NCBI GenBank assembly: GCA_958298945.1
Contig: OY282609.1
Coordinates: 38,289,212 to 38,353,211, forward strand
Direction: 5' to 3'
Source of the DNA: Atherix ibis
Lineage: Eukaryota > Arthropoda > Insecta > Diptera > Athericidae
Length of the DNA stretch: 64,000 bases
The translations under genes were made by a program, and so were the position numbers. The first letter of the stretch is position 1. Every line of letters starts with the position of its first letter. Of this stretch, positions 3,054 through 40,507 are shown piece after piece. A model generated the notes under the pieces. It saw only the letters and a program-made list of their open reading frames with translations, searched no databases and was not told the origin of the DNA.

Positions 3054-4241
3054 ACTATCCTGTTTAATCATGGTGGTTGGCATCGAGATCAGATGAAGGG
3101 GTCGTCAGCCTATTTGTTTTTGGAAAATGCCTATGATTGGATCAAGATCTAGTGTTGTTCTCGATTCCTTTTTATTTTTTCGCCAAGCATCTTGGACACC
3201 GCGTCTTTATTACATGTCCGAGTTTGTTGAAGTTCAAGCATAGCGGAATAAAAAAATAGCCATTTTATGTATTCCTAACTGGCTTCGTATAGCGGGCGAT
3301 AAACCTGTCCATACAATTTGTGCAAATTTTCACTCCTGGAATAGGAGTCGATAATCAATAACATCTTGTTAAAAAGCATGTATATGTTGGAGATCAACAG
3401 GGCAGGGTTTCCACTATATATTATAATATACGAGTATATAGCACGATATTTTAGTTAGTGAAGCAAAAAAAATTCACGTCAAATTATTTATTGGAGGGAA
3501 TGAGACCAACTTGCACTGCAAAAAAAATAATGATGAGATTAAAAAAATTTTTAATTATGGGGGAATGGAGGCTGATGTGAAAATTAATATCTAATAATTT
3601 CCCAAATAAATTCAATTTTATATGTTGCGTATTCTCGATTTTTTCCTTTTTTTCATTAATTCTGCTCAATTTCCACATAAGACCTAAAATATGTAATTTT
3701 TAGAATTAAATTTCAATTTGTATTTTAAAATATGTGATATTTTCAATAACAAAATTACCTACTATGCCGTATTCATGACTCTCGACTATCTCAGCGTACA
3801 TAAGCTAAGCAGCAAGTTGTCGTCATATATATCTCTCTCTTTCAGCGAAAGATAACTCTGATAGTTTAACCAGAATCTCCAAAAGACGAAGGAATAACTG
3901 GGCATCGTGACAGGCTAGCTTTACAGGATTATATCGGGATTCTTTATCATATCACCGTCGCCTTCGCACCCAAACGTAATAAAAAAATTCATGCCAAAAA
4001 GTATATTTAAAATGGAGATACCAAAGATATGAGCTTCTCCAGGGCAAAAAGATCTAGGCTAGGGAATAAAAAGTCCAGGCCAAAAAAGATCTAGGCTACG
4101 GAATGTTGGAAGTGCCCCTTTATACTTCATAACCTACCTTGGTTGGCTGAGCTCATGGTTTAACAGATGATCTGTAATGACTCAGGAAGGGGGGTGAAAA
4201 TAAAAATTATATTATCATTCCATGATATATGTACATATATA
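3054..4241. other. Intergenic, no gene recognised
   Basis: AT-rich and full of stops in all frames. The minus strand at about 3250-3170 reads CLNFNKLGHVIK, reminiscent of a gag CCHC zinc knuckle, but the spacing is broken and this is weak. The stretch at 3975-4050 (CATGCCAAAA...GGAGATA...TTCTCCA) resembles 47,975-48,060, so an unnamed dispersed repeat may be present. Confidence 0.4.
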
Positions 4242-12789: not shown

Positions 12790-14849
12790 TTTTTTATTTA
12801 TTTAGATATTTACAACTACAACATAGTAATAAGCAAATTTTTGCAATAGTATAAATTAACTTGATAGGTTGTGGGGAGTAAACATCCATTGAAGTTCCTC
12901 CTGCTAGCGTGTGTTTCTGTCAGGCCTCAGTATTTAAGTAAATCACGCGACCAGTGACGCTTAAGTCTTCGTTGGGTATTAATAGGAAAGGAAGTGGAGG
13001 ATAGTTCTTGAACAAGAGGATTATTATGATTGAGGACACGGGAACGGAACTTTTTAAAACGAGATACAGCCATGTCAAAAACAAATGGGACTTTAAGATC
13101 ACGATGAATAACAGTATTGCGAACATAAAAGGGGGCATCGACAATTGAACGGAGTATTTTTGATTGAAGGGATTGGATTCGACGGGAATTAGAAGGCTTA
13201 GTAGATCCCCAGAGTTCTAGTCCGTATGTCCATATGGGTTTCAGTAAGGTATTGTATAACAGAACTTTGCTGTCTATAGTAAGTTTGGAACGTTTGTCTA
13301 GAAGTCGAAGTAGTTTTAGGTATCGTCTTTTAAGTTCTTGTCTTTTAAGTCTTGTATGTGGGTTCCATGTCAAGCGTTTGTCTAAGTACAGTCCTAGATA
13401 CCGAGCTTCGGTGTGTTGAGGTATGGCACTGCCATTAAGGTATATGGGAGGGCATGTCTCACGACGGAGAGTAAAAGTTACCTGGATAGATTTTCGTTCA
13501 TTGACTTTTATTCTCCACTTAGTAAACCAGTTCTGGAGGGTTTGGATTTGGATTTGGAGAGTTTCGGAAGCATGTTGGGGATTTTCGCTAGATGCAAGGC
13601 AGGCATCATCGGCGTATGTAGTAAAGAAGATATTAGGGCAAATTGGGATATCGGATGTGTAAATGTTGTAGAGGATGGGTCCAAGTATACTACCCTGAGG
13701 AACCCCAGCCAATATCGGAGAGATATTTGACAGTTCGTTGGATTCATTTACTTGGAAGTGTCGGTTGGAAAGGAATAATCTTAGGATTAGGAAATAGGTG
13801 GAAGGACGGAACCTCTTGAGTTTCCAGAGTAGACCCGGGTGCCAAACTCTATCAAAAGCTTGACTTATATCAAGAAACACACCGGGACAGTACTCTTTTC
13901 TTTCTAAAGAGGATGCAATGAAATCGACAACACGATGACACTGCTGGGTAGTGGAGTGTTCGGCGCGGAAACCAAATTGGTGATTAGGAATTAAATTTCA
14001 AGATTCAAGTAGAGGATATAAGCGGCGAAGGAGGATTTTTTCAAAGATTTTTGAGGGAAGTGGAAGGAGACTTATTGGCCTCAAGGAAGTGGGCCGGTTT
14101 AATGGTTTGCTGGGCTTAGGGATCATTTTAATGATTGCAAATTTCCAGAGGATTGGGAAATGTGTTGTTCTAAGGATGGAGTTATATATTGTCGCAAGGA
14201 AAACTATTGCTCTTTTAGGGAGTTGTTGGAGTATATTGGAGGTAATCAGATCATAGCCAGGAGCTTTATTTTTGGGAAGGAGCTTGATTATATTGGCAAC
14301 TTCGGAAGGAGTGATTGCCTTAGGGGAAAGACTCATGGGTAAAGGAATGGATAGTTCCGTCTCGATTGTAGTGCAATGAGTCCTGTCTAATATGTCTTCA
14401 TGTGGAGTAAATGTTTGTGCAAGGTGTTCAGCAAAAGCGTCTGCTTTATGTTTGTCCGTTTTGGCCCAGGTTCCGTCAGTTTTTCGTAAAGGGTGCTTTG
14501 TTTTTCTATAAGATAGTATTTGTCTTGTAGCAGTCCACAAAGTTCTGTTTTTCGTTAGGGTTGAAGTATAGTTTCTAAAACGTTCTGTATTGTATTAAGT
14601 GATTTCGTCATGTAGTTCTTTTTGCAGTTTGTTCAGTTTGGTTTTGTCGCTGGGCATTCTTGTGTGTTGCCAATGAGATCTTGCTTTTCGTTTTTCTGCA
14701 ATAAGACGCCTAATTGTTAATGGTTGAATTGTTAGGTTTTGTGTAGGTTTCGAGTTTTTACTTTTTTGCGAAAAGTCTGTAGCATTTTGTAGTAAACATG
14801 TAAACTTGTGTACCGTGTCATCTAGTTCTTGTACTGTTTTTAAGCTTTG
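12790..14849 (-). mobile_element. Jockey-type LINE, 5'-truncated, with TSD
   Basis: A 2.06-kb non-LTR insertion in unit B, transcribed leftward. It is bounded by direct repeats TAACAATAATTTT (12,776-12,788 and 14,850-14,862). The left end is a T run (the poly(A) tail on the minus strand). The 5' truncation removes ORF1 and the endonuclease. This is the best-preserved member of the family that also occurs at 1-1240, 6840-7480, 44.4-46.6 and 61.8-63.1 kb. The conserved 3' end reads CTATGTTGTAGTTGTAAATA on the minus strand. Confidence 0.92.
12927..14849 (-). pseudogene. Jockey-type reverse transcriptase ORF, two stops
   Basis: Minus-strand RT of a LINE, which would copy element RNA at a nicked target. 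Reading from 14,849 it passes the linker region, then NKAPGYDLITSN (about 14,260), LRPISLLPLPSKIFEKILLRR (split here by position 14,070-14,030), NHQFGFRAEHST, FLDISQAFDRVWH (13,880), GVPQGSILGPILYN (13,700) and the catalytic TYADDACLASS, with YADD at 13,616-13,605. ARYLGLYLD and the C-terminal domain follow and end at 12,927. The reading frame is interrupted by only two stops, at about 14,592 and at 13,997 (after PLLES), so decay is mild. The endonuclease is absent through truncation. The Jockey assignment is by motif resemblance. Confidence 0.9.
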
Positions 14850-20493: not shown

Positions 20494-20506
20494 TAGTAAT
20501 TTATGT
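20494..20506. repeat. Target-site duplication, left copy
   Basis: TAGTAATTTATGT, identical to 21,339-21,351. It flanks the poly(T) end of the 5S-headed retroposon. 13 bp is typical of LINE-type target-primed integration. Confidence 0.93.
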
Positions 20507-20548
20507 TTTTTTTTTTTTTTTTGTTATTTGACAGGTTTCATTTCTACA

Positions 20549-21064
20549 TTATACATTATACACATAGTCATGAGACACAGTCGCTCCTATGGAGCATATA
20601 GCGGCACAGAGAATACACGTCTCTAATTGGTGGTAGAAGGCTTCTTTATTGGCGTCATCCTCTACTTCAGTTGGGGCATAGCATTGCACGATGGTGATGT
20701 TTCGGAACTTCGAGTGGAACCTGGCTGTCAGAAGGCGGTCGGAGACCGGTTTGTAGCCCATGAGAGATCTCTTTGCGTTGGCTGATAGGATTAATCCGAC
20801 TCCACAGTGGTGTCCACTGTCGTTGCCGCTGTAGATGAAGTGTTCACCCGTCTGCGTTGCGAGGATTCCTTGATGTTTCCACCTTGTTTCGGAGATTCCC
20901 AGTATGTCGAGATTGTAGCGTCGCATTTCGGAAGTAGCTTGCGCCAGACGAGAAGTTTGGGAGAGAGTCCGCACGTTCCAGGTACCCATTCGAGTTGTTC
21001 GGTGAAAGCCAAATGTCGTTTTGCCTGAGGTATTGTCCGGATGATTACTCTTGTGCTGTTTCAT
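20549..21064 (-). CDS. N-terminal APE-type endonuclease fragment of a LINE
   Basis: A 171-codon ORF inside the 5S-headed retroposon. Residues about 25-150 show the exonuclease/endonuclease/phosphatase fold of LINE endonucleases, which nick target DNA: GTWNVRTL (Asn motif), LDILGISETRW (catalytic Glu), HCGVGLIL, and ITIVQCYAPTE. Proteins of this type are often labelled craniofacial development protein 2-like in insect annotations. The conserved C-terminal catalytic part (GDFN, SDH motifs) and the whole RT are missing. After FYHQLET the frame runs into unrelated 3' tail sequence (CILCAAICSIG...) for about 20 codons. The frame is open with no stop, unlike most elements here, which fits a recent insertion. 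It is unlikely to be an active nuclease. Confidence 0.85.
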   Translation of the reverse strand: MKQHKSNHPDNTSGKTTFGFHRTTRMGTWNVRTLSQTSRLAQATSEMRRYNLDILGISETRWKHQGILATQTGEHFIYSGNDSGHHCGVGLILSANAKRSLMGYKPVSDRLLTARFHSKFRNITIVQCYAPTEVEDDANKEAFYHQLETCILCAAICSIGATVSHDYVYNV

Positions 21065-21193
21065 GATAAGATGTTTTTTATGGCTTGCGGCTTATCAGGC
21101 CAGCGAAGCAACCCCCAGTGACGTTGGGGGACCCTACGGACTACATATGTAAGGCTTGTAGTCGGCCTCTCACCCCGGCACCAATGCCGTGAT

Positions 21194-21217
21194 GGCGGCA
21201 GCGGGAATCGAACCCGC
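21194..21217 (-). promoter_or_regulatory. tRNA T-arm/acceptor-like segment with B box
   Basis: The minus strand reads GCGGGTTCGATTCCCGC, a perfect 5-bp T stem with a 7-base loop and an exact match to the RNA polymerase III B-box consensus GGTTCGANTCC. It is followed by the 7-nt acceptor-like TGCCGCC and an A. It begins about 7 nt after the end of the 5S-like head. No A box or anticodon arm precedes it, so this is the 3' end of a tRNA-like unit fused to 5S, not a tRNA gene. Confidence 0.8.
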
Positions 21218-21224
21218 TACCTAC

Positions 21225-21337
21225 CTGCGACACGCGGTTTTCCAAGTGGTCACCCATCCGAGTACTAACCACGCCCAGTCCTGCTTAACTTCGGTGATCT
21301 GACGAGAACCGGTGGATCCAGGATGGCACGGTCGCAG
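21225..21337 (-). promoter_or_regulatory. 5S rRNA-derived head (internal Pol III promoter)
   Basis: On the minus strand the 113 nt follow insect 5S rRNA along the full length. Shared segments include CCGGTTCTCGTCAGATCACC, GAAGTTAAGCAGG (box A region), GGTTAGTACTCGGATGGG (intermediate element/box C), and GACCACTTGGAAAACC. The terminal helix is kept as CTGCGAC at the start and GTCGCAG at the end. That suggests selection on the structure or a recent origin. It is a retroposon head rather than a 5S gene, since it continues into the tRNA-like part, a coding leader and poly(A), and is flanked by a TSD. Confidence 0.87.
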
Positions 21338-21338
21338 A

Positions 21339-21351
21339 TAGTAATTTATGT
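21339..21351. repeat. Target-site duplication, right copy
   Basis: TAGTAATTTATGT, identical to 20,494-20,506, abutting the 5' end of the 5S-like head. Confidence 0.93.
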
Positions 21352-24837: not shown

Positions 24838-25556
24838 TGGATACTGTAAAGTCTCAATTGGAAATGTTAAGTGAAGATAGTCAATTTTATTTCATGGCGA
24901 TTTAAATTAAACCTAGCACTTAAGAACAAAGATCTGTATTATATGATAACGGGTGCAAAACCCAGACCAGCAGGTGCTGCGTCAATTGATACAGTCGCCA
25001 CTTGGTTAAAGAAAGATATTGGGCTCAAACTTTGATAGGTTTGAATGTAAACAGTAAGATTGCAAACAAAATTGCAAATTATAAAACTGCCAAAGATATG
25101 ATGGACAAATTGGCTAGTTTATATGGTACAAAGACTGATGTTACCCTGGAAACGTCCCGAATCAAATTCTTTACCTATGAGTATGATGAAAACAAATCAG
25201 CTGTTGAGACCTATATGGAGATTTTGAATTTCGCGGAAGAAGTGTCAACTGAAAATGATCCTGTGAGGGAAAGTTGGATCATGACGAGGATCATGAGTGT
25301 GCTGCCACCAAAACTGGCTTATTTCAGGACATCCTGGGACAACGTGACCGGAGCAGCAAAGAACGTGGAAACTCTTATGGAACGCTTGAGACTCGAGGAC
25401 GAGCGACTTAAAGAAACGACGACAAATGCAGAGCCGCAGCACCAACAACGCTCTCATGGCCAGACGCAGGAAACAAGAACAGCAAGCAAGAAAAATCACA
25501 GTTCGCATGCTACAAATGTGGGAAGAAGGGTCACGTGCTGAAGGAGTGCAGGGGAA
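24838..25556 (+). pseudogene. Copia gag, frameshifted
   Basis: Starts at ATG 24,838 (MDTVKSQLEMLSEDSQF) and shifts frame near 24,895 and again near 25,010. The readable blocks RFKLNLALKNKDLYY, ATWLKKDI and AQTLIGLNVNSKIANKI are the usual copia gag (UBN2-like) capsid core. The long frame at 25,002-25,541 continues it. Two CCHC zinc knuckles follow: CYKCGKKGHVLKEC (about 25,508-25,550, in a frame overlapping the next ORF) and CNICKKKGHFAKDC (25,603-25,645). Confidence 0.85.
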
Positions 25557-26722
25557 AACCGTGTGATGAATACAATGCCTATTGCAAGAAAAAGTATTCG
25601 TGTAACATCTGTAAGAAGAAAGGACACTTCGCAAAAGACTGTGAATCTCGAGAAGAACCGAATAAGTCAACAAACGGGAAACAAAATAGGAAGGCATTTT
25701 TGACCATGGCACTCTCGACGGTGGACAACGACATCTCCAAGGACAGGGCCACTTCATGGTATCAAGACGGTGGAGCCAGCCAACACATGACGTCTCATCG
25801 AGAGTGGTTTGTTCAACTTATTGAGTTGGACGAGCCCATTCCAATTGTGATTGGAGACTCAACCAGGCTGGATGGCGTTGCAGTCGGGAACATCGAGATG
25901 GAGGCATTTGATGGTCAAAAGTGGTATCCTGTGGTATTGGAGGATGTCATTTACGTGCCAAATCTCAACTTTAATCTTTTCTCAGTGAGTCAGATGTTAG
26001 ACAAGGGACATGTACAGAGGGCAAACGGAAACGAGTCAACGTTTTACAGTCTCGATGGCAGAGAAATTGTGGCAATGGCAAAACGCAAAGGAAATCTCTA
26101 CAAAATGATGCTCAGGAGAGAAGAGACAAGTTTGATGGCCGTGTCGATCAAAGTCTGGCACGAGCGACTCGACCATCAGAATGTCAAGTACGTGAGGGAT
26201 ATACTGAAGAGGAAAGGAATAAAATACATTGATGACTGGAATGACAATGTATGCACAGCGTGCTCGTATGGCAAGTTACAAAGATCCTCGCACCCAAACA
26301 ACCCCAATACAGCCCAGCAGCCGTTGGCTCTCGTACACGTCGACACCGGCGAGATGAATATCCCGTCATTGGGAGGAGCAAAGTACTGGCTCATGTTCAA
26401 GCACGATGTCACTCACTACCGAACCTGTTACTTTATGAAGACGAAAATTGAAGCACCAGAGAAGATCGAATGTTATCTGAGACTTGTTGAAAACCAGCTA
26501 GTGAGGAGAGTGAAAAGTCTGAGGTCTGACAACGGTACCGAACTGAAGAATGCAAAAACAAAACAGATGATGGACACGTTAGGAATTTTACACACCTTTA
26601 CGAATGTACACACGCCAGAGCAGAACGGCAGGATCGAGAGAGAAATGAGAACGATTGTAGAGGCAGCCAGAACAACGTACCAGGGAAAAGCCCAGCAGAA
26701 CTTTGGTTCGGAAGGAAAATGA
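25535..26722 (+). pseudogene. Copia protease and integrase
   Basis: A 395-codon open frame. After the second zinc knuckle comes the aspartic protease site WYQDGGASQHMTSH, where the usual DSGA is DGGA; the catalytic Asp is kept but the next residue is Gly. The GAG-pre-integrase HHCC zinc domain is VWHERLDHQNV...CTACSYGK (about residues 205-250). The integrase core follows with HVDTGEM (Asp 1), SLRSDNGTELKN (Asp 2) and HTPEQNGRIEREMRTIVE (Glu). The core then ends abruptly at GKAQQNFGSEGK. The sequence expected in the next frame (KSPAELWFGRK) is present, showing a deletion plus frameshift that removes the segment after the catalytic Glu. Confidence 0.9.
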
Positions 26723-27147
26723 AGATTGAGAAGCTGCGACCTTTTGGATGCGAATGTTACGTGCTGACACAAAAACATAAAATAGGCAATATGGATAGAA
26801 AATCAGAAAAGGGAATTCTGGTTGGCTATGATATTGATTCACCCTGCTATCGGGTTTATCTGAAAGAGAAAAGAGAAATTATCAGCTCAGACAATGTGAT
26901 TTTCGACAAGGAAAAGATGGGAATGAGGCAAGGAACTGAACTTGAGACACTGGCACCAGAGGACACACCTGAGAAGCATGAGGAAAGCAGCAGCGAGACA
27001 GACGAAGAAGATGGGAACTGGGGAACTGGAGAAAGTGCTGAGGAGGCAAGTGACAAAGAGAGGGAGACACCAGCGCCAGAAGAAGAGTCAGGAAGGAGAG
27101 TTTTGCGAGATCTCTCGGAGATACTCTGCAACCACCACCAAGACTGA
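26719..27147 (+). pseudogene. Copia integrase C-terminal part and linker
   Basis: Frame-shifted continuation of pol. It contains LRPFGCECYVLTQKHKIGN and KGILVGYDIDSPCYRVYL, the conserved block after the copia integrase core, then an acidic linker rich in E, T and S (ETDEEDGNWGTGESAEEASD). A stop at 27,147 and another frame break precede the RT. This linker normally joins integrase to RT. Confidence 0.85.
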
Positions 27148-27263
27148 GAGACTGTATGCTTGACTCACGCCGTGGAGGAAAGAGTGCAAAAGTAGCCATG
27201 ATTGGTGAAACGGGCGACAACCCGGTGAGTGAGGCACTCACAGATGAGAAGTGAAGACGAGCC

Positions 27264-28277
27264 ATGCAGGAGGAGTATGATTCGCTGATGGAGATGAAAA
27301 CTTGGAAGTTGGTGGACTGTCCAGAAAGAGCAAAACCAATCACCTGTCGCTGGGTACTTCGAGAGAAGGCGGACGGTAGATGCAGGGCCAGACTAGTGGC
27401 AAGGGGCTTTGAACAGAAGGAGGGAGTGGACTACACGGAAACTTTCAGCCCAGTAGCCCGCGATGCATCCATTCGCCTACTCCTAAGTCACGCAGCGTCA
27501 GAGAACATGAAGTTGGTATCGTTCGATGTGAAAACGGCTTTCTTGTATGGGAACCTAGAGCAAGACATTTATATGCACCAGCCTGAGGGTTTTGACGACG
27601 GAACCAGGAAAGTCTGCAAGCTGAACAGGAGTCTCTACGGACTTAAACAAGCTCCGAGGATGTGGAACGAGAGGGTCACCACTCACTTTGAGAAGAAGAT
27701 AGGCTTGATCAACACAGATGACGACCCGTGTATATACTATAACAAGGACGGGAGCATTATGCTTTCACTCTTCGTGGATGATGGATTGGTAGTCGGCAAA
27801 GATGAAGAAGAAATATACAAACTTTTAGAGGATATAAGCAAGGAATTCGAGATAACCTTCAGCAAGAAAGTACAAGACAAGTTAACGTATTTGGGGATGG
27901 AAATCAAGATCGACCAGGACGGTATCTTCGTGAGTCAGGCTCGCTACACGGAGAAGATCTTGAGAAAGATGAAACTCGGACAGTTCAATCCAGCATCCAT
28001 ACCCACTGAGCCTGGAATGATCAACCATAAGACGGACTTCAAGAACGACGAGGCACTCCCAGCGAACAACAACTATCGCGAGGCGATAGGAAGCTTATTG
28101 TACTTAGCTACAATAACCAGAAGACATAAGCTTCGCCGTGAACTACCTCAGTTGATTCTGCAACAAGCCCATGAAGAGCCATCAGTCGATGGTGGAACGT
28201 GTTTTCCAGTACCTGAGAGGGACGACGACAGCCGGAATTCATTTTGGAGGAGACAAGACACTCGTGGCCTACACTGA
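27264..28277 (+). pseudogene. Copia reverse transcriptase
   Basis: A 337-codon open frame. RVT_2-type RT blocks in order: KTWKLVDCPERAKPI, RCRARLVARGFEQKEGVDY, TFSPVARDASIRLLL, FDVKTAFLYGNLEQDIYMHQ, LNRSLYGLKQAPRMWN, and LSLFVDDGLVVGK with the catalytic VDD. KLTYLGMEI and NNYREAIGSLLYLATITR follow. The frame then shifts near 28,115. This is the least damaged part of the element. Confidence 0.93.
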
Positions 28278-35504: not shown

Positions 35505-38500
35505 ATGAATCCAGAACGTTCAGTTCAGAGTTCAGAAGGTAACAATTCTAATGATCAACAGAGGCAACAGTCTCAGCAGTCGTCACCACAACAATCACCG
35601 CACCATCAACAGCAGCATCATCACCTGCATCATCGTCTGTCCCATCAACAGCAAATCGATGAGGTACGGTTAATTAAAATAATAAAAATTAACTTTTGCA
35701 AACTTATATCATTTTGATGTCAATAAATGTGCTGTCACAATTTTTAGTCGATAGCCCAAACATTTTTCTATGAGGGCATATTGGCCAATCTAATCGTATA
35801 ACAACTTTAAATATACTTAGTGAAATTTTGCTGCTGAACTTTTTGTACTTATTCAAAATATGCACAATAATGGAGCGACTGTTAATACAAAATTATTTGA
35901 GAAGAAAATTATGTGACCGCTATACTTGTACATACAAATATATTTTTGCTTGCGGATTTTAATAAAATTTCTAATTTGCCACCCACTATTATAAGATGAA
36001 TTCTTACACATCCTGTCTATGTTTCATTCAATTTTAAATAATAAAACAGAGTTAAATATTATCATTGTAAAACTATTGTAAGAAAACTTGATATGTGCAA
36101 TATTACATTGTTTTCGATTTTGGTGCTATCTTTTTATACTGAATGTGTGTTCGCACACATTTATTAAGTAGATGCTTTTTATGAAATTCATATGCATTCA
36201 TATAATTATTTACCATAAAACAAATATTTAAATTTTCAGTGATTTGCACATCCAAGAAATACTGCAATGTAATAAATTTTTATCAGAAAACAAAATAAAT
36301 TAATACCTGATTTTAATATTAATTTTTGTAAATCAAAAAGCATCATCAGCAGAATCGTAGCTCTGTTGGAGTAATACAGCCAGTTAGTGAAGCTGAAGGA
36401 AAACACCCTTTGCAATTATCAGGAGTTCCACACGTAAGTTAGAAACAATTGAACAGTAAAAATTCAATTCGTTTTGTACAAAAAAATCTATATTTCGCAA
36501 GTCAAAAATATAAATATTTCATAATTTGTGATTTTTATATTAAGTGTGGATATTCTTAGTTCATTTTTTTAATTTTTAAGGAAATAAAATTGGGAAAATA
36601 TGTTTCAATATTTTGATTTACAGCTTGGAAAATACTGGGTTGTCACGAATCTCTTCCAGGGTGCCGGGCACAATGCTTATAATATAGCTACTCCGCCGAC
36701 ATCATCATCAGGATTAGTAATGGCACCGCCTCCGCTACCTTCAACACATTCGACGACACCAATATTGAAATTGGATACGATCAAACAAGAATCACCAAAT
36801 ATTCATCATCGTCACACACCTCAACACCAACAACAACAGCAACAAACAACACAGTCGCAACAACAAACAGTACCACAGCAACATCTAGTAACACCAGTTA
36901 GTGTTGGGTCAACCTTAATCCACATACCGAATCCACTAATGAATCCAGTGGCTGGACAGAACCAAATTCCTAATAATAGCATGATATCAAATGGTCCGCC
37001 ACCGGAACAGATACAAATTCCTGTTAATCCGGAGTCAAGTCTTATGGTGATCGATACTTCTAATTCAAATCCTAAACAGGAAAAGATGACATTAAATTCA
37101 CAAAATATTCGTCAAGAACCTATGCAAACTACTATGGATAGATCTGTAACAGGTCACCCACTGCAAGAAGTTAAAGAAGAAAAGCCATTTGCAAATTGTA
37201 AAATTATACCTCCTCATCAACAAATTCATCCACATCATCTAATAAATGATTCAAAAGTGCAAGTTCCCCATTTATTAGATATGCGCCATGCTGATGGATC
37301 ACTGGTTAAAATACAACCACCTGAACAGGAGTTAGGAAAATCATTGGGTGTTGAAATGTATAAAGTTAACATTGAAGATTTAAGTCAATTCTTATCATAT
37401 CATGAAGTTTTTGGAAAACTACACGGCGATGTTATGACACCACATCCAATAACGCATGCAAATACGCATACAACAAATACTGTTACTAATGCTAATATAC
37501 CATCATCAACATCATCCAATACTACAACAACTACTAATAATATTACAAATACAACTGGCGAATTGTTAATGCCGAAAATTGAAGGAGTTAATCAAATGCC
37601 AAGTATTAATCAAACGCATAATCCGAACAATACACATTTACTAGCTGATGGTACAACGATAACACCAGCTACACACACTTGCGATATTTGTGGAAAAATG
37701 TTTCAATTCCGTTATCAGTTGATAGTTCATCGTAGATATCACAGTGAACGTAAACCATTTAACTGTCAAGTTTGTGGACAAGGTTTTACTACATCGCAAG
37801 ACCTAACACGTCATGGTAAAATACACATCGGTGGGCCAATGTTTACTTGCACTGTCTGTTTCCACGTGTTTGCCAATGACGCAAGTCTCGAGAGACATAT
37901 GAAAAGACACTCAACTGACAAACCATTTGCATGTACGATTTGCCAAAAAACATTTGCACGAAAAGAGCATCTTGATAATCATTTCCGGAGTCACACTGGT
38001 GAAACACCCTTTCGATGCCAGTTTTGCGCTAAAACATTTACTCGAAAGGAACATATGGTTAATCATGTACGCAAACATACTGGCGAAACTCCACATCGTT
38101 GTGATATCTGCAAAAAATCTTTTACGCGCAAAGAACATTATGTTAATCACTATATGTGGCATACAGGTAAAATTGTTAATTATTAATTTTTGAATGTTTT
38201 AAAAATATAAATTTTTGGTATATTTGCAGGTGAAACACCACATCAGTGTGAAGTTTGTGGCAAAAAATATACACGAAAGGAGCATCTGGCAAATCATATG
38301 CGATCACATACTAATGATACGCCATTCAGGTGTGAGATATGTGGTAAAAGTTTCAGTCGAAAAGAGCATTTCACCAATCATATTTTGTGGCATACCGGTA
38401 ATTAAAATTTATCTATCAATAAATAGACACTATCGTTCATAAATAAGTGAATAATTGTATATTCAGGGGCAAATATTATGACAATTATAAAAATTATTAT

Positions 38501-40507
38501 TAGTCCTTATGCTTAAATTTGTTTGCATACTTAGTGCTATTATCTACAATATTTTATTGAATATATTTTTTATCCTTTTTTTTAGGGTAGGTAAAAAATA
38601 TTGTTGGTAAAGTAATGACAGCATATATTCGTTTAAACTCTGTCAAAACCATACCTACAGATCTTTTTGTTTGTAAGTGTTCTAAACGATGAATTAAAGT
38701 ATATTTACAAAATATCCATACACGTCTCTTAATTCTTCCGTTATTTTTAAGAGGCTCCACTACTCTTAACTCCCATATTAAACAACTTCACGAATTTGAT
38801 TCATGATAATGAAATAATTTTGTAATCTGTTCGTCTTTTTATTTGTTCTTGGTATTCTGATAATAATAATAGTATGTTCAGGCGCCTATACCTTATTTCG
38901 AATTGCAAAAATAATTAAGAGTTTGTTACTAGAACATTGTCAAATTACTTTTTTTGTGGCAGCAATGCTACTGCGCAGCGAATTTGGAATTGGAGATGTG
39001 GTCCAGCGCTTCAAAAATAATAAGTGTTTTCACATTTCTAGAACAAAAGTTTTGTAACATTCTAATATAGAATTTCAATTGAGCTAATAAAATCTGTAAA
39101 ACTTTTTTAGAATATATTATATTTTTATATCAAAGGAAATATTGATATATTTTTTTTAAATCAATTTTTCAAATTAAAAAAAAAATTTAATACATATATT
39201 GATTAAACGAAACGAAAAAATAAACACATCGGAAACTTATTGATATTAATATTAATTTGTTTTTGTATAGGCGAAACTCCTCATCGCTGTGACTTTTGTG
39301 CTAAGACGTTTACTAGAAAGGAACATCTTTTAAATCATGTACGCCAACATACGGGCGAATCACCACATCGTTGTACGTATTGTTTGAAGACGTTCACTCG
39401 GAAAGAGCATTTAGTAAATCATGTTCGGCAGCACACTGGTGAAACGCCATTTAAGTGCACATTTTGCACAAAAGCTTTCACACGGAAAGATCATATGGTA
39501 AATCATATACGGCAGCATACTGGCGAATCTCCGCACAAATGCACGTACTGCACAAAAACGTTTACTAGGAAAGAACATCTCACTAATCATGTACGACAAC
39601 ATACAGGTGAATCACCGCATCGATGCTCGTATTGCAAAAAAACGTTTACCAGAAAAGAGCATCTTACAAATCATGTGCGTTTACATACAGGTGATTCTCC
39701 TCATAAATGTGAATATTGCCAGAAAACTTTTACGCGTAAAGAGCATTTGAATAATCATATGCGTCAACATTCAAGCGACAATCCTCATTGTTGCAATGTT
39801 TGTAATAAACCATTTACGAGAAAAGAACATTTAATAAATCATATGTCTCGCTGTCATACTGGAGATAGACCATTTGCATGTGAAACGTGTGGCAAATCCT
39901 TCCCTTTGAAAGGCAATTTACTTTTCCATCAAAGAAGTCATACTAAGGGGCAAGATGTAGAACGACCTTTTCGTTGCGATAAATGTCCGAAAGATTTCAT
40001 ATGCAAAGGTAATTTTTTTTTGTTATATTTAAATAAAGATTATAATAAAATTATGCAGGTCACCTTGTGTCACATATGAGATCACATTCAGGCGAAAAGC
40101 CGCATATGTGCACGCTCTGCAGTAAATCATTTGTTGAAAAAGGGAATCTGAAAAGGCATATTAAAATGAATCATCCGAATGTCATACTACCACCAACTGT
40201 AATGGCAACTACAGTGAAAAATGAATCGAATATAACAAGTACATTGCATAAATTAACATTTTGTCCCTTAGAAAATAAATATATATATAAATACCAAATT
40301 ATCTAAAATTCTAGTTCTGCATCAACCTCCAACTTTACATACAATACAGCAAATTACTGGAACTCCAAATGCCACAGCAAATGTAAACAATGCAACTGCT
40401 GTCTCAAATCCTATTTCTATTGGTTTAATGCCTGTTGCATCTTCAACAATAACATCGCTTAATGGTCAAACACAACCACAACAGCAGCAGCAACAACAGC
40501 AACAACG

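Follow-up and report, generated by a model that had tools for sequence, protein, structure and literature searches.

How short interspersed nuclear elements (SINEs) acquire the combination of an RNA polymerase III (Pol III) head and the tail of a long interspersed nuclear element (LINE) is an old question, and it is raised anew by a locus in the fly Atherix ibis. In the 64,000-nucleotide stretch that we analyzed (the window; NCBI GenBank assembly GCA_958298945.1, contig OY282609.1, positions 38,289,212 to 38,353,211 of the forward strand), an 832-bp retroposon lies on the minus strand at 21338-20507. It runs from a full-length 5S rRNA sequence through a T-arm with a B box, a 5' untranslated region (UTR), part of an endonuclease open reading frame (ORF), and a 3' tail to poly(A). 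To what kind of element does this head belong, and how did it get there? The best explanation as a whole, to which we give a probability of roughly three in four, is that the retroposon derives, as a short internally deleted element (SIDE), from an autonomous RTE-like LINE, and that this LINE has the Pol III-type head as its own 5' end.

The anatomy proposed in a first-pass annotation of the sequence stands in each of its parts. The 5S segment at the start of the element is indeed full length: the Rfam model 5S_rRNA matches 21222-21339 on the minus strand over its complete length (1-120) with 103.6 bits, against a gathering score of 38 (E = 1.3e-21 over the window, 2e-23 over a short stretch). 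Within the head, AAGTTAAGCAGGACTGGG at 21274-21291, the A-box region in 5S anatomy, is unchanged compared to the host 5S, and the C-box region is partly changed. Behind the 5S lies a perfect T-arm containing GGTTCGATTCC, which we take to be the B-box consensus; ARAGORN reports no tRNA in the 64-kb window. The ATG at 21064 starts an uninterrupted frame of 171 codons plus stop, ending at 20549, that had been read as the N-terminal half of an APE endonuclease; PF03372 matches the fragment weakly (23.7 bits versus a cut-off of 24.5, for a query without the first Met) and the protein of the parent LINE clearly (49.6 bits). A search of solved structures returned no relative, the single match having an E value of 0.67. 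A 3' segment and poly(A) close the element, which is flanked by a target-site duplication, ACATAAATTACTA, with a length of 12-13 bp: its first A perhaps belongs to the poly(A) and its last A perhaps to the element.

We searched the window's own genome (669.8 Mb in 144 contigs) for copies; in what follows, counts from similarity searches are lower bounds, and counts from pattern searches cover the whole genome and depend on the mismatches allowed. The best 40 of 2036 candidate SIDE copies were scored, and each covers at least 792 of the 832 bases with 96-100% identity; none of them lacks the 5S/tRNA-like part, so that the composite head described in the annotation is not peculiar to the copy in the window. 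With up to two mismatches allowed, a pattern for the internal join matches the genome 346 times, compared to 0 for the reversed-pattern control. This repetition, in the scored copies and in the joins, excludes a chance origin of the element. The 11 copies that we fetched have a mean pairwise identity of 99.5%, which argues that the family spread recently. Their frame is open in 8 and interrupted by a stop at codon 72-73 in the other 3; it is probably not maintained. The flanks of 8 copies share words of 7-13 bp in five cases and of 6 bp in two, with only an A run in one. Three copies sit in a tandemly duplicated block (L009 1642-6518; G000:C2:54019141-54024017), and for this reason not each SIDE place is a separate insertion.

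The full-length relatives of the SIDE are abundant in the same genome. Using a relative protein (57% identical) as query, we scored 137 genome places of 1165 candidates, many with a 1038-codon open frame, and fetched 20 LINE loci (L022-L041), mostly from the best-scoring matches. In 19 of the 20 (L022-L040), the 5' part of the SIDE, nt 1-740, aligns to the 5' end of a LINE, whole or 5'-truncated, with 92-98% identity, starting at nt 1-91 and continuing into the full LINE; in the older copy L041, the alignment starts at nt 116. The 3' part aligns from nt 727-728 in all 20 loci, and over the last ~105 bases the SIDE and the LINE 3' end are 82-86% identical in L022-L040 and 81% identical in L041, which the SIDE tail resembles at some positions. 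What the SIDE lacks is LINE nt ~728 to ~3214, about 2.5 kb, with 1-2 bases of microhomology at the join. Both of its ends are those of an autonomous LINE of the same genome, and it was amplified with a single join, which places it among the SIDEs. Like SINE3-type elements, it has a 5S-derived 5' head and a 3' end in common with its partner LINE; unlike them, it has a body that is neither short nor non-coding, at 832 bp with a 171-codon frame.

The LINE itself is ~3.3 kb long. In L031, a 276-nt 5' UTR is followed by a 987-amino-acid ORF whose stop ends at nt 3240, a 3' UTR of ~55 nt, and then poly(A), which starts near nt 3295. Counted from stop to stop, 18 of the 20 loci are open over 987 codons or more, and 16 pass a stricter start-anchored test. 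The protein contains an endonuclease, a reverse transcriptase, and DUF6451; PF03372, PF00078, PF20049, and PF14529 are the only Pfam families found at E <= 0.001. As in RTE elements, a single ORF encodes an AP endonuclease and a reverse transcriptase, RNase H is lacking, and the 3' UTR is short. The tail is an A-rich poly(A) and not the simple-repeat 3' tail described for moth RTEs (PMC2887409, accessible text), a difference from the lepidopteran elements that we do not treat as clade-defining. No relatives of the protein were reported in viral contigs, bacterial or archaeal genome contigs, or phage records, in a comparison that may omit records close to the genome of the window, and inspection by eye of the N-termini of relatives' predicted proteins revealed nothing clear that would correspond to a translated 5S or T-loop.

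The annotation had weighed a SINE that captured LINE coding sequence against an internally deleted LINE whose own 5' UTR contains the composite head. The structure of the latter holds: full-length LINEs start with the same 5S and T-arm, and the genome contains headed endonuclease-reverse transcriptase LINEs as well as the repeated internal join. Among the 19 headed LINE copies, 11 start at SIDE nt 1 and the other 8 are truncated by 2-90 bases. In all 11 untruncated copies SIDE nt 1 is preceded by an A, as in the host 5S. The flanks share words of 11-15 bp in 16 of the 19 copies; a few A in these words possibly belong to poly(A), the L027 word is partly an A run, and the L024 word lies 11 bases off. 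The LINE-type joint between 5S and T-arm occurs at 52 genome places (control 0). For at least 3 of them, one of the 100 SIDE joins listed (of 346) is no more than 1 kb away, and thus not all 52 are LINEs. Together these observations make it practically negligible that a LINE inserted by chance into a 5S pseudogene, a scenario for which we found nothing in favor: in many copies the duplication borders the first bases of the 5S from outside, and the arrangement recurs at 346 joins and 52 LINE-type head joints.

The 5S head is the host's own 5S. The host genes form an array with 655-bp spacing, in which 46 of 47 scored matches reach 114.1 bits and the 20 genes that we fetched do not differ from one another; next to the main array, one 5S copy (G000:C1:111421984-111422102) scores 108.5 versus 114.1 bits and is possibly a variant gene. 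Compared to the host 5S, 12 LINE heads and the SIDE head are identical at 103-111 of 118 positions, from the start of the 5S to its 3' end: six early-branching LINEs have 105-111, five young LINEs 103, and the young L039 and the SIDE 108 each. A 31-base stretch around the A box and the intermediate element agrees fully with the host 5S in 16 of 17 young loci that extend to it, the exception being L037.

Older LINE copies reveal a second kind of head in the same place. We fetched 20 lower-scoring copies over the endonuclease and the upstream region; four of them match the LINE only from nt 113-114, the joint between 5S and T-arm (the 5S ends at nt 116). In L041, L066, L067, L074, and L079, a common, different sequence stands upstream of the joint, a tRNA-like 5' half in place of the 5S. 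In four of these loci (L041, L067, L074, and L079), an A box, TGGTGCAGTGG, precedes the B box GGTTCGATTCC by 44 bp, both boxes being identified by their consensus motifs; L066 is without an A box. A pair of boxes with this spacing appears in 0 of 20000 dinucleotide shuffles. We interpret the T-arm of 5S-headed elements as what remains of such a head after replacement of its 5' half.

A search with the tRNA-like head, in which the best 40 of 952 candidates were scored (96-100% identity, own query included), placed 5 of the 40 near one of the 137 scored endonuclease matches; neither search is exhaustive. Six of the other 35 places were fetched (L082-L087). Five of them contain internal joins, at five different positions and always with the head spared; the sixth shows no join within the 441 bases covered. 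In all six tRNA-headed loci, the flank ceases to match immediately 5' of the A-box region. Head-sparing internal deletion looks to be a recurrent event in this LINE lineage. L070, considered as a further tRNA-headed copy, was rejected: its motif match lies inside the endonuclease.

The two kinds of head follow the phylogeny of the LINE. We built a tree on LINE nt 210-735, leaving out the head (51 rows, drawn at the midpoint), and one branch (100/99) splits 12 rows on the tRNA-headed side from 39 on the 5S-headed side. On the 5S side, 36 of the 39 rows show 5S sequence, including L064, L075, L033, L037, and L038, which carry all or part of it, and three are truncated (L065, L078, and L081); on the tRNA side, 5 of the 12 show the tRNA-like half and 7 are truncated. 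As a separate observation, the first codon of the ORF also differs between the sides: it is ATG in 23 of 23 scored 5S-side copies (L022-L040 except L036, plus L063, L064, L068, L077, and L078) and AAG in 11 of 11 scored tRNA-side copies (L041, L066, L067, L069, L072, L074, L076, L079, L084, L085, and L087), the motif used leaving 12 of 46 copies without a score.

The SIDE forms a single clade (98/93) within the 5S side, and 5S-headed LINEs include early branches there. The SIDE is an internally deleted derivative of a LINE that already bore the 5S head; the head belonged to the autonomous LINE before the SIDE family arose. The 5S-headed SIDE family looks like the product of a single founder that was then amplified. 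This nesting disfavors the annotation's alternative of coding sequence captured from a LINE by a SINE, here one with a 5S-tRNA head that would later have been handed on to LINEs. We consider that order improbable. It has a parallel in moths, whose element HaSE3 is described as a chimera of 5S and a tRNA-SINE that has an RTE element for a partner (PMC3272025, accessible text), but early branches of the 5S side here include headed LINEs, and among the best-scoring matches we met no headed element without the LINE 5' UTR, although no search was aimed at one. A one-off chimera was rejected together with chance insertion and SINE capture.

The LINE apparently had a tRNA-like head at first, then exchanged its 5' half for the host 5S, and then gave rise to a SINE-like deletion family. 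A second tree, with protein outgroups, puts 13 of 14 5S-side rows together (86/87) among unresolved tRNA-side branches. That the ancestor was tRNA-headed is favored more by the anatomy than by this rooting, because the relic T-arm stands behind the 5S.

How might such a head work? Most probably it would be an internal Pol III promoter, composed of the A box, intermediate element, and C box of the 5S and the B box of a tRNA. If Pol III started at nucleotide 1 of the element, each full-length copy would carry its promoter along. Mature 5S RNA may have been the source of the 5S, reached during target-primed reverse transcription by a switch of template or by RNA joining, and the SIDE RNA, with its LINE 3' end and poly(A), would be reverse transcribed in trans by the LINE protein. 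We infer that the head serves as a promoter, because two dissimilar sequences in one slot both resemble Pol III promoters and each travels with the element from base 1. Three further steps are likewise inferred: the direction in which the heads were exchanged, a template switch to 5S RNA, and mobilization in trans.

Least certain is whether the coding RNA of the LINE is made by Pol III or by Pol II. At only slightly worse than even odds, Pol III makes the short derivatives alone; LINE RNA would come from Pol II, using a downstream promoter or a read-through one, and the head would be a passenger that matters only after deletion has produced a short element. The LINE requires a translated 987-amino-acid ORF, and its one TTTT, at nt 771, falls within the part missing from the SIDE. 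Kojima (2024) also argues, in the accessible text, that the autonomous partners of Pol III-promoter long terminal repeat (LTR) elements need Pol II, the processivity of Pol III being weak (PMC10886601). Yet a passenger needs no replacement by another Pol III promoter, and in this lineage a Pol III-type head persisted even as one type gave way to another, with untruncated LINE copies starting at the head. We regard it as doubtful that the full sequence of events holds, in which Pol III drives the coding LINE RNA, reverse-transcriptase template switching changed the promoter type from tRNA-like to host 5S, and SINE-like families arise by deletion alone.

We looked at runs of T as a possible trace of Pol III transcription. 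The LINE has one TTTT, compared to 2.6 expected from dinucleotide shuffles (251 of 1000 as low) and 3.75 expected from codon permutation (115 of 2000 as low). Depletion of T runs was rejected as evidence of Pol III transcription, being significant in neither the LINE nor the SIDE. The LINE's only TTTT (nt 771 of L031) encodes part of the GDFN motif of the endonuclease.

The 5S might also be there for reasons other than transcription. Under passive capture, the reverse transcriptase of the LINE would switch to structured RNAs that happen to be abundant, and the 5S would be a by-product without function that became fixed through a lucky founder. The head does cover the 5S from its start to its 3' end, and 5S/L1 and tRNA/L1 chimeras arise repeatedly in mammals; the mammalian 5S chimeras, however, are typically truncated and antisense (PMC13174262, accessible text), whereas the 5S here is full length, sense, inherited along a branch, and replaces another Pol III-type half at the T-arm joint. 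We think passive capture unlikely.

Somewhat less likely still, the head acts as an RNA, its 5S-like fold binding uL18/uL5 or TFIIIA and so aiding ribosome docking, nuclear traffic, or cis-preference. The Alu domain, which is thought to use SRP9/14, provides an analogy. Consistent with an RNA role, the 5S is full length and its terminal stem is closed in the predicted folds of both the head and the host 5S. The tRNA-headed branch, on the other hand, was repeated too without a 5S fold, the change at 5S position 16 weakens a helix by our reading of the alignment, and the z-scores against shuffled sequences are not significant. The last were rejected as a measure of selection on the head, the z-score being equally weak for the real host 5S.

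Several results weigh against the view that a LINE carries, and passed on, a working Pol III-type head of its own. The C-box region of young heads has changes at several positions compared to the host 5S, a retroposed 5S promoter has been argued to be weak without upstream signals (PMC3272025, accessible text), and the TTTT at nt 771 could stop Pol III inside the LINE. The SIDE has no TTTT, and the same is true of 3312 of 5000 shuffles; the T-run test is uninformative. The folding energy, compared to shuffles, is not significant for either head folded, nor for the real host 5S. For the tRNA-like head, Rfam scores of 26.8 bits (L066) and 23.1 bits (L074) fall below the gathering score of 29, and ARAGORN finds no tRNA in the 10 loci examined for this half. 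In the outgroup tree, L063 of the 5S side stays at the base, where the branching is unresolved, and L041, a degraded copy of the tRNA side, is placed among the 5S rows; that the tRNA-like head is ancestral is weakly supported by the rooting. In the flank comparisons, the SIDE copy L006 shows no convincing target-site duplication, and L026, L037, and L040 show none of at least 11 bp, only 5-7 bp. Finally, the LINE is only putatively an RTE element, by its architecture and its resemblance to that clade.

The features of the SIDE in the window are collected in Table 1.

Table 1. Parts of the deleted element and its flanking duplication, in window coordinates.
Feature	Positions	Strand	Basis or remark
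Target-site duplication, 5' copy ACATAAATTACTA	21339..21351	-	final A perhaps 5S nucleotide 1
5S rRNA-derived head, host 5S nt 1-2 through 3' end	21222..21338	-	Rfam RF00001 and 108/118 identity with host 5S
T-arm GCGGGTTCGATTCCCGC, read as left from an older tRNA-like head	21201..21217	-	same T-arm behind A box in older LINE copies
B box GGTTCGATTCC inside T-arm	21204..21214	-	sequence position
Remainder of LINE 5' UTR	21065..21200	-	alignment with full-length LINEs
Open frame, N-terminal half of LINE AP-type endonuclease, ending within LINE 3' tail	20549..21064	-	ORF and Pfam
Internal join, ~2.5 kb of LINE missing	20609..20613	-	ambiguous by 1-2 bases, microhomology TC
LINE 3' end: final ORF bases and 3' UTR	20524..20610	-	alignment with LINEs
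Poly(A)	20507..20523	-	sequence
Target-site duplication, 3' copy ACATAAATTACTA	20494..20506	-	matches 21339-21351

Elsewhere in the window are a reverse transcriptase fragment of another retroelement (12927-13997, minus strand; RVT_1, 98.8 bits) and a Copia-like element (25412-28277, plus strand) with a zinc knuckle, GAG-pre-integrase, integrase core, and RVT_2 in neighboring frames. Two C2H2 zinc-finger frames lie on the plus strand at 36588-38186 and 39207-40079. Among the 120 matches listed of 194, the first of these has no close named match; the named match with the widest coverage is from Pseudolycoriella hygida (88% coverage, 35% identity).

How does this lineage compare to what is known? 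Neither an autonomous LINE headed by 5S or tRNA sequence nor an exchange of such heads by one turned up in the open-licence literature that we searched, Repbase not included. In trypanosomes, the short elements of the pairs RIME/ingi and NARTc/L1Tc keep the 5' end of the LINE; the 5' promoter that they have in common is a sequence of 77-79 bp, neither a 5S nor a tRNA gene. Other systems come close in single respects, and the following comparisons refer to the accessible text of each report.

RTE-type LINEs often yield bipartite derivatives, and SINEs are described as non-coding RNA heads on these, the head coming after the deletion (Kojima 2020, PMC7245038). Such bipartite derivatives and RTE-based SINEs resemble the SIDE in their retained 5' and 3' LINE regions, their tRNA or 5S heads, and their mobilization by a LINE (PMC7245038). 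In that scheme, however, deletion comes first and the head is added later to a short element; here, the autonomous LINE bears the head and exchanged part of it, and the SIDE inherited it. The insect 5S SINEs HaSE3 (PMC3272025) and PxSE4/5 (PMC8010984) have, like the SIDE, a 5S head with A box, intermediate element, and C box. PxSE4/5 and their relatives are 294-389 bp long, in contrast to the 832 bp here, with an endonuclease frame and a 5S joined to a T-arm; and no head-bearing partner LINE is described for HaSE3 or PxSE4/5, whereas here the head is common to SIDE and LINE. The SIDE Persaeus, with its CR1 LINE Zenon, is likewise an amplified deletion derivative made of both LINE ends (PMC6740152). 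It is derived from CR1, however, has a length of 263-386 bp, and is reported to be without similarity to tRNA, 5S, or 7S and without a Pol III promoter (PMC6740152).

Small RNAs joined to the 5' end of a LINE are also seen in the chimeric 5S/L1, tRNA/L1, and U6/L1 insertions, for which template switching or RNA ligation has been proposed (PMC13174262). The L1 chimeras are separate insertions, those with 5S being typically truncated and antisense; the head described here is full length and sense, and was inherited by a productive lineage. Cassandra, Ajax, and Helenus (TRIMp3) are also retroelements with 5S- or tRNA-derived promoters (PMC10886601). Unlike the LINE here, they are non-autonomous LTR elements whose autonomous partners are expected to rely on Pol II (PMC10886601).

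Set beside these systems, the Atherix lineage shows replacement of the 5' end of a LINE with an identifiable donor gene, the host 5S array, and raises the question of whether a Pol III promoter can sustain a LINE that codes for protein. If it were a Pol III-driven, promoter-switching LINE, SINE-like families would need no separate head-capture step. The presence in one genome of the two head states, of the autonomous LINE, and of products of its deletion makes the order of events readable and testable: in the bipartite RTE scheme, the head joins an element that is already short; here, the short element received its head from the LINE.

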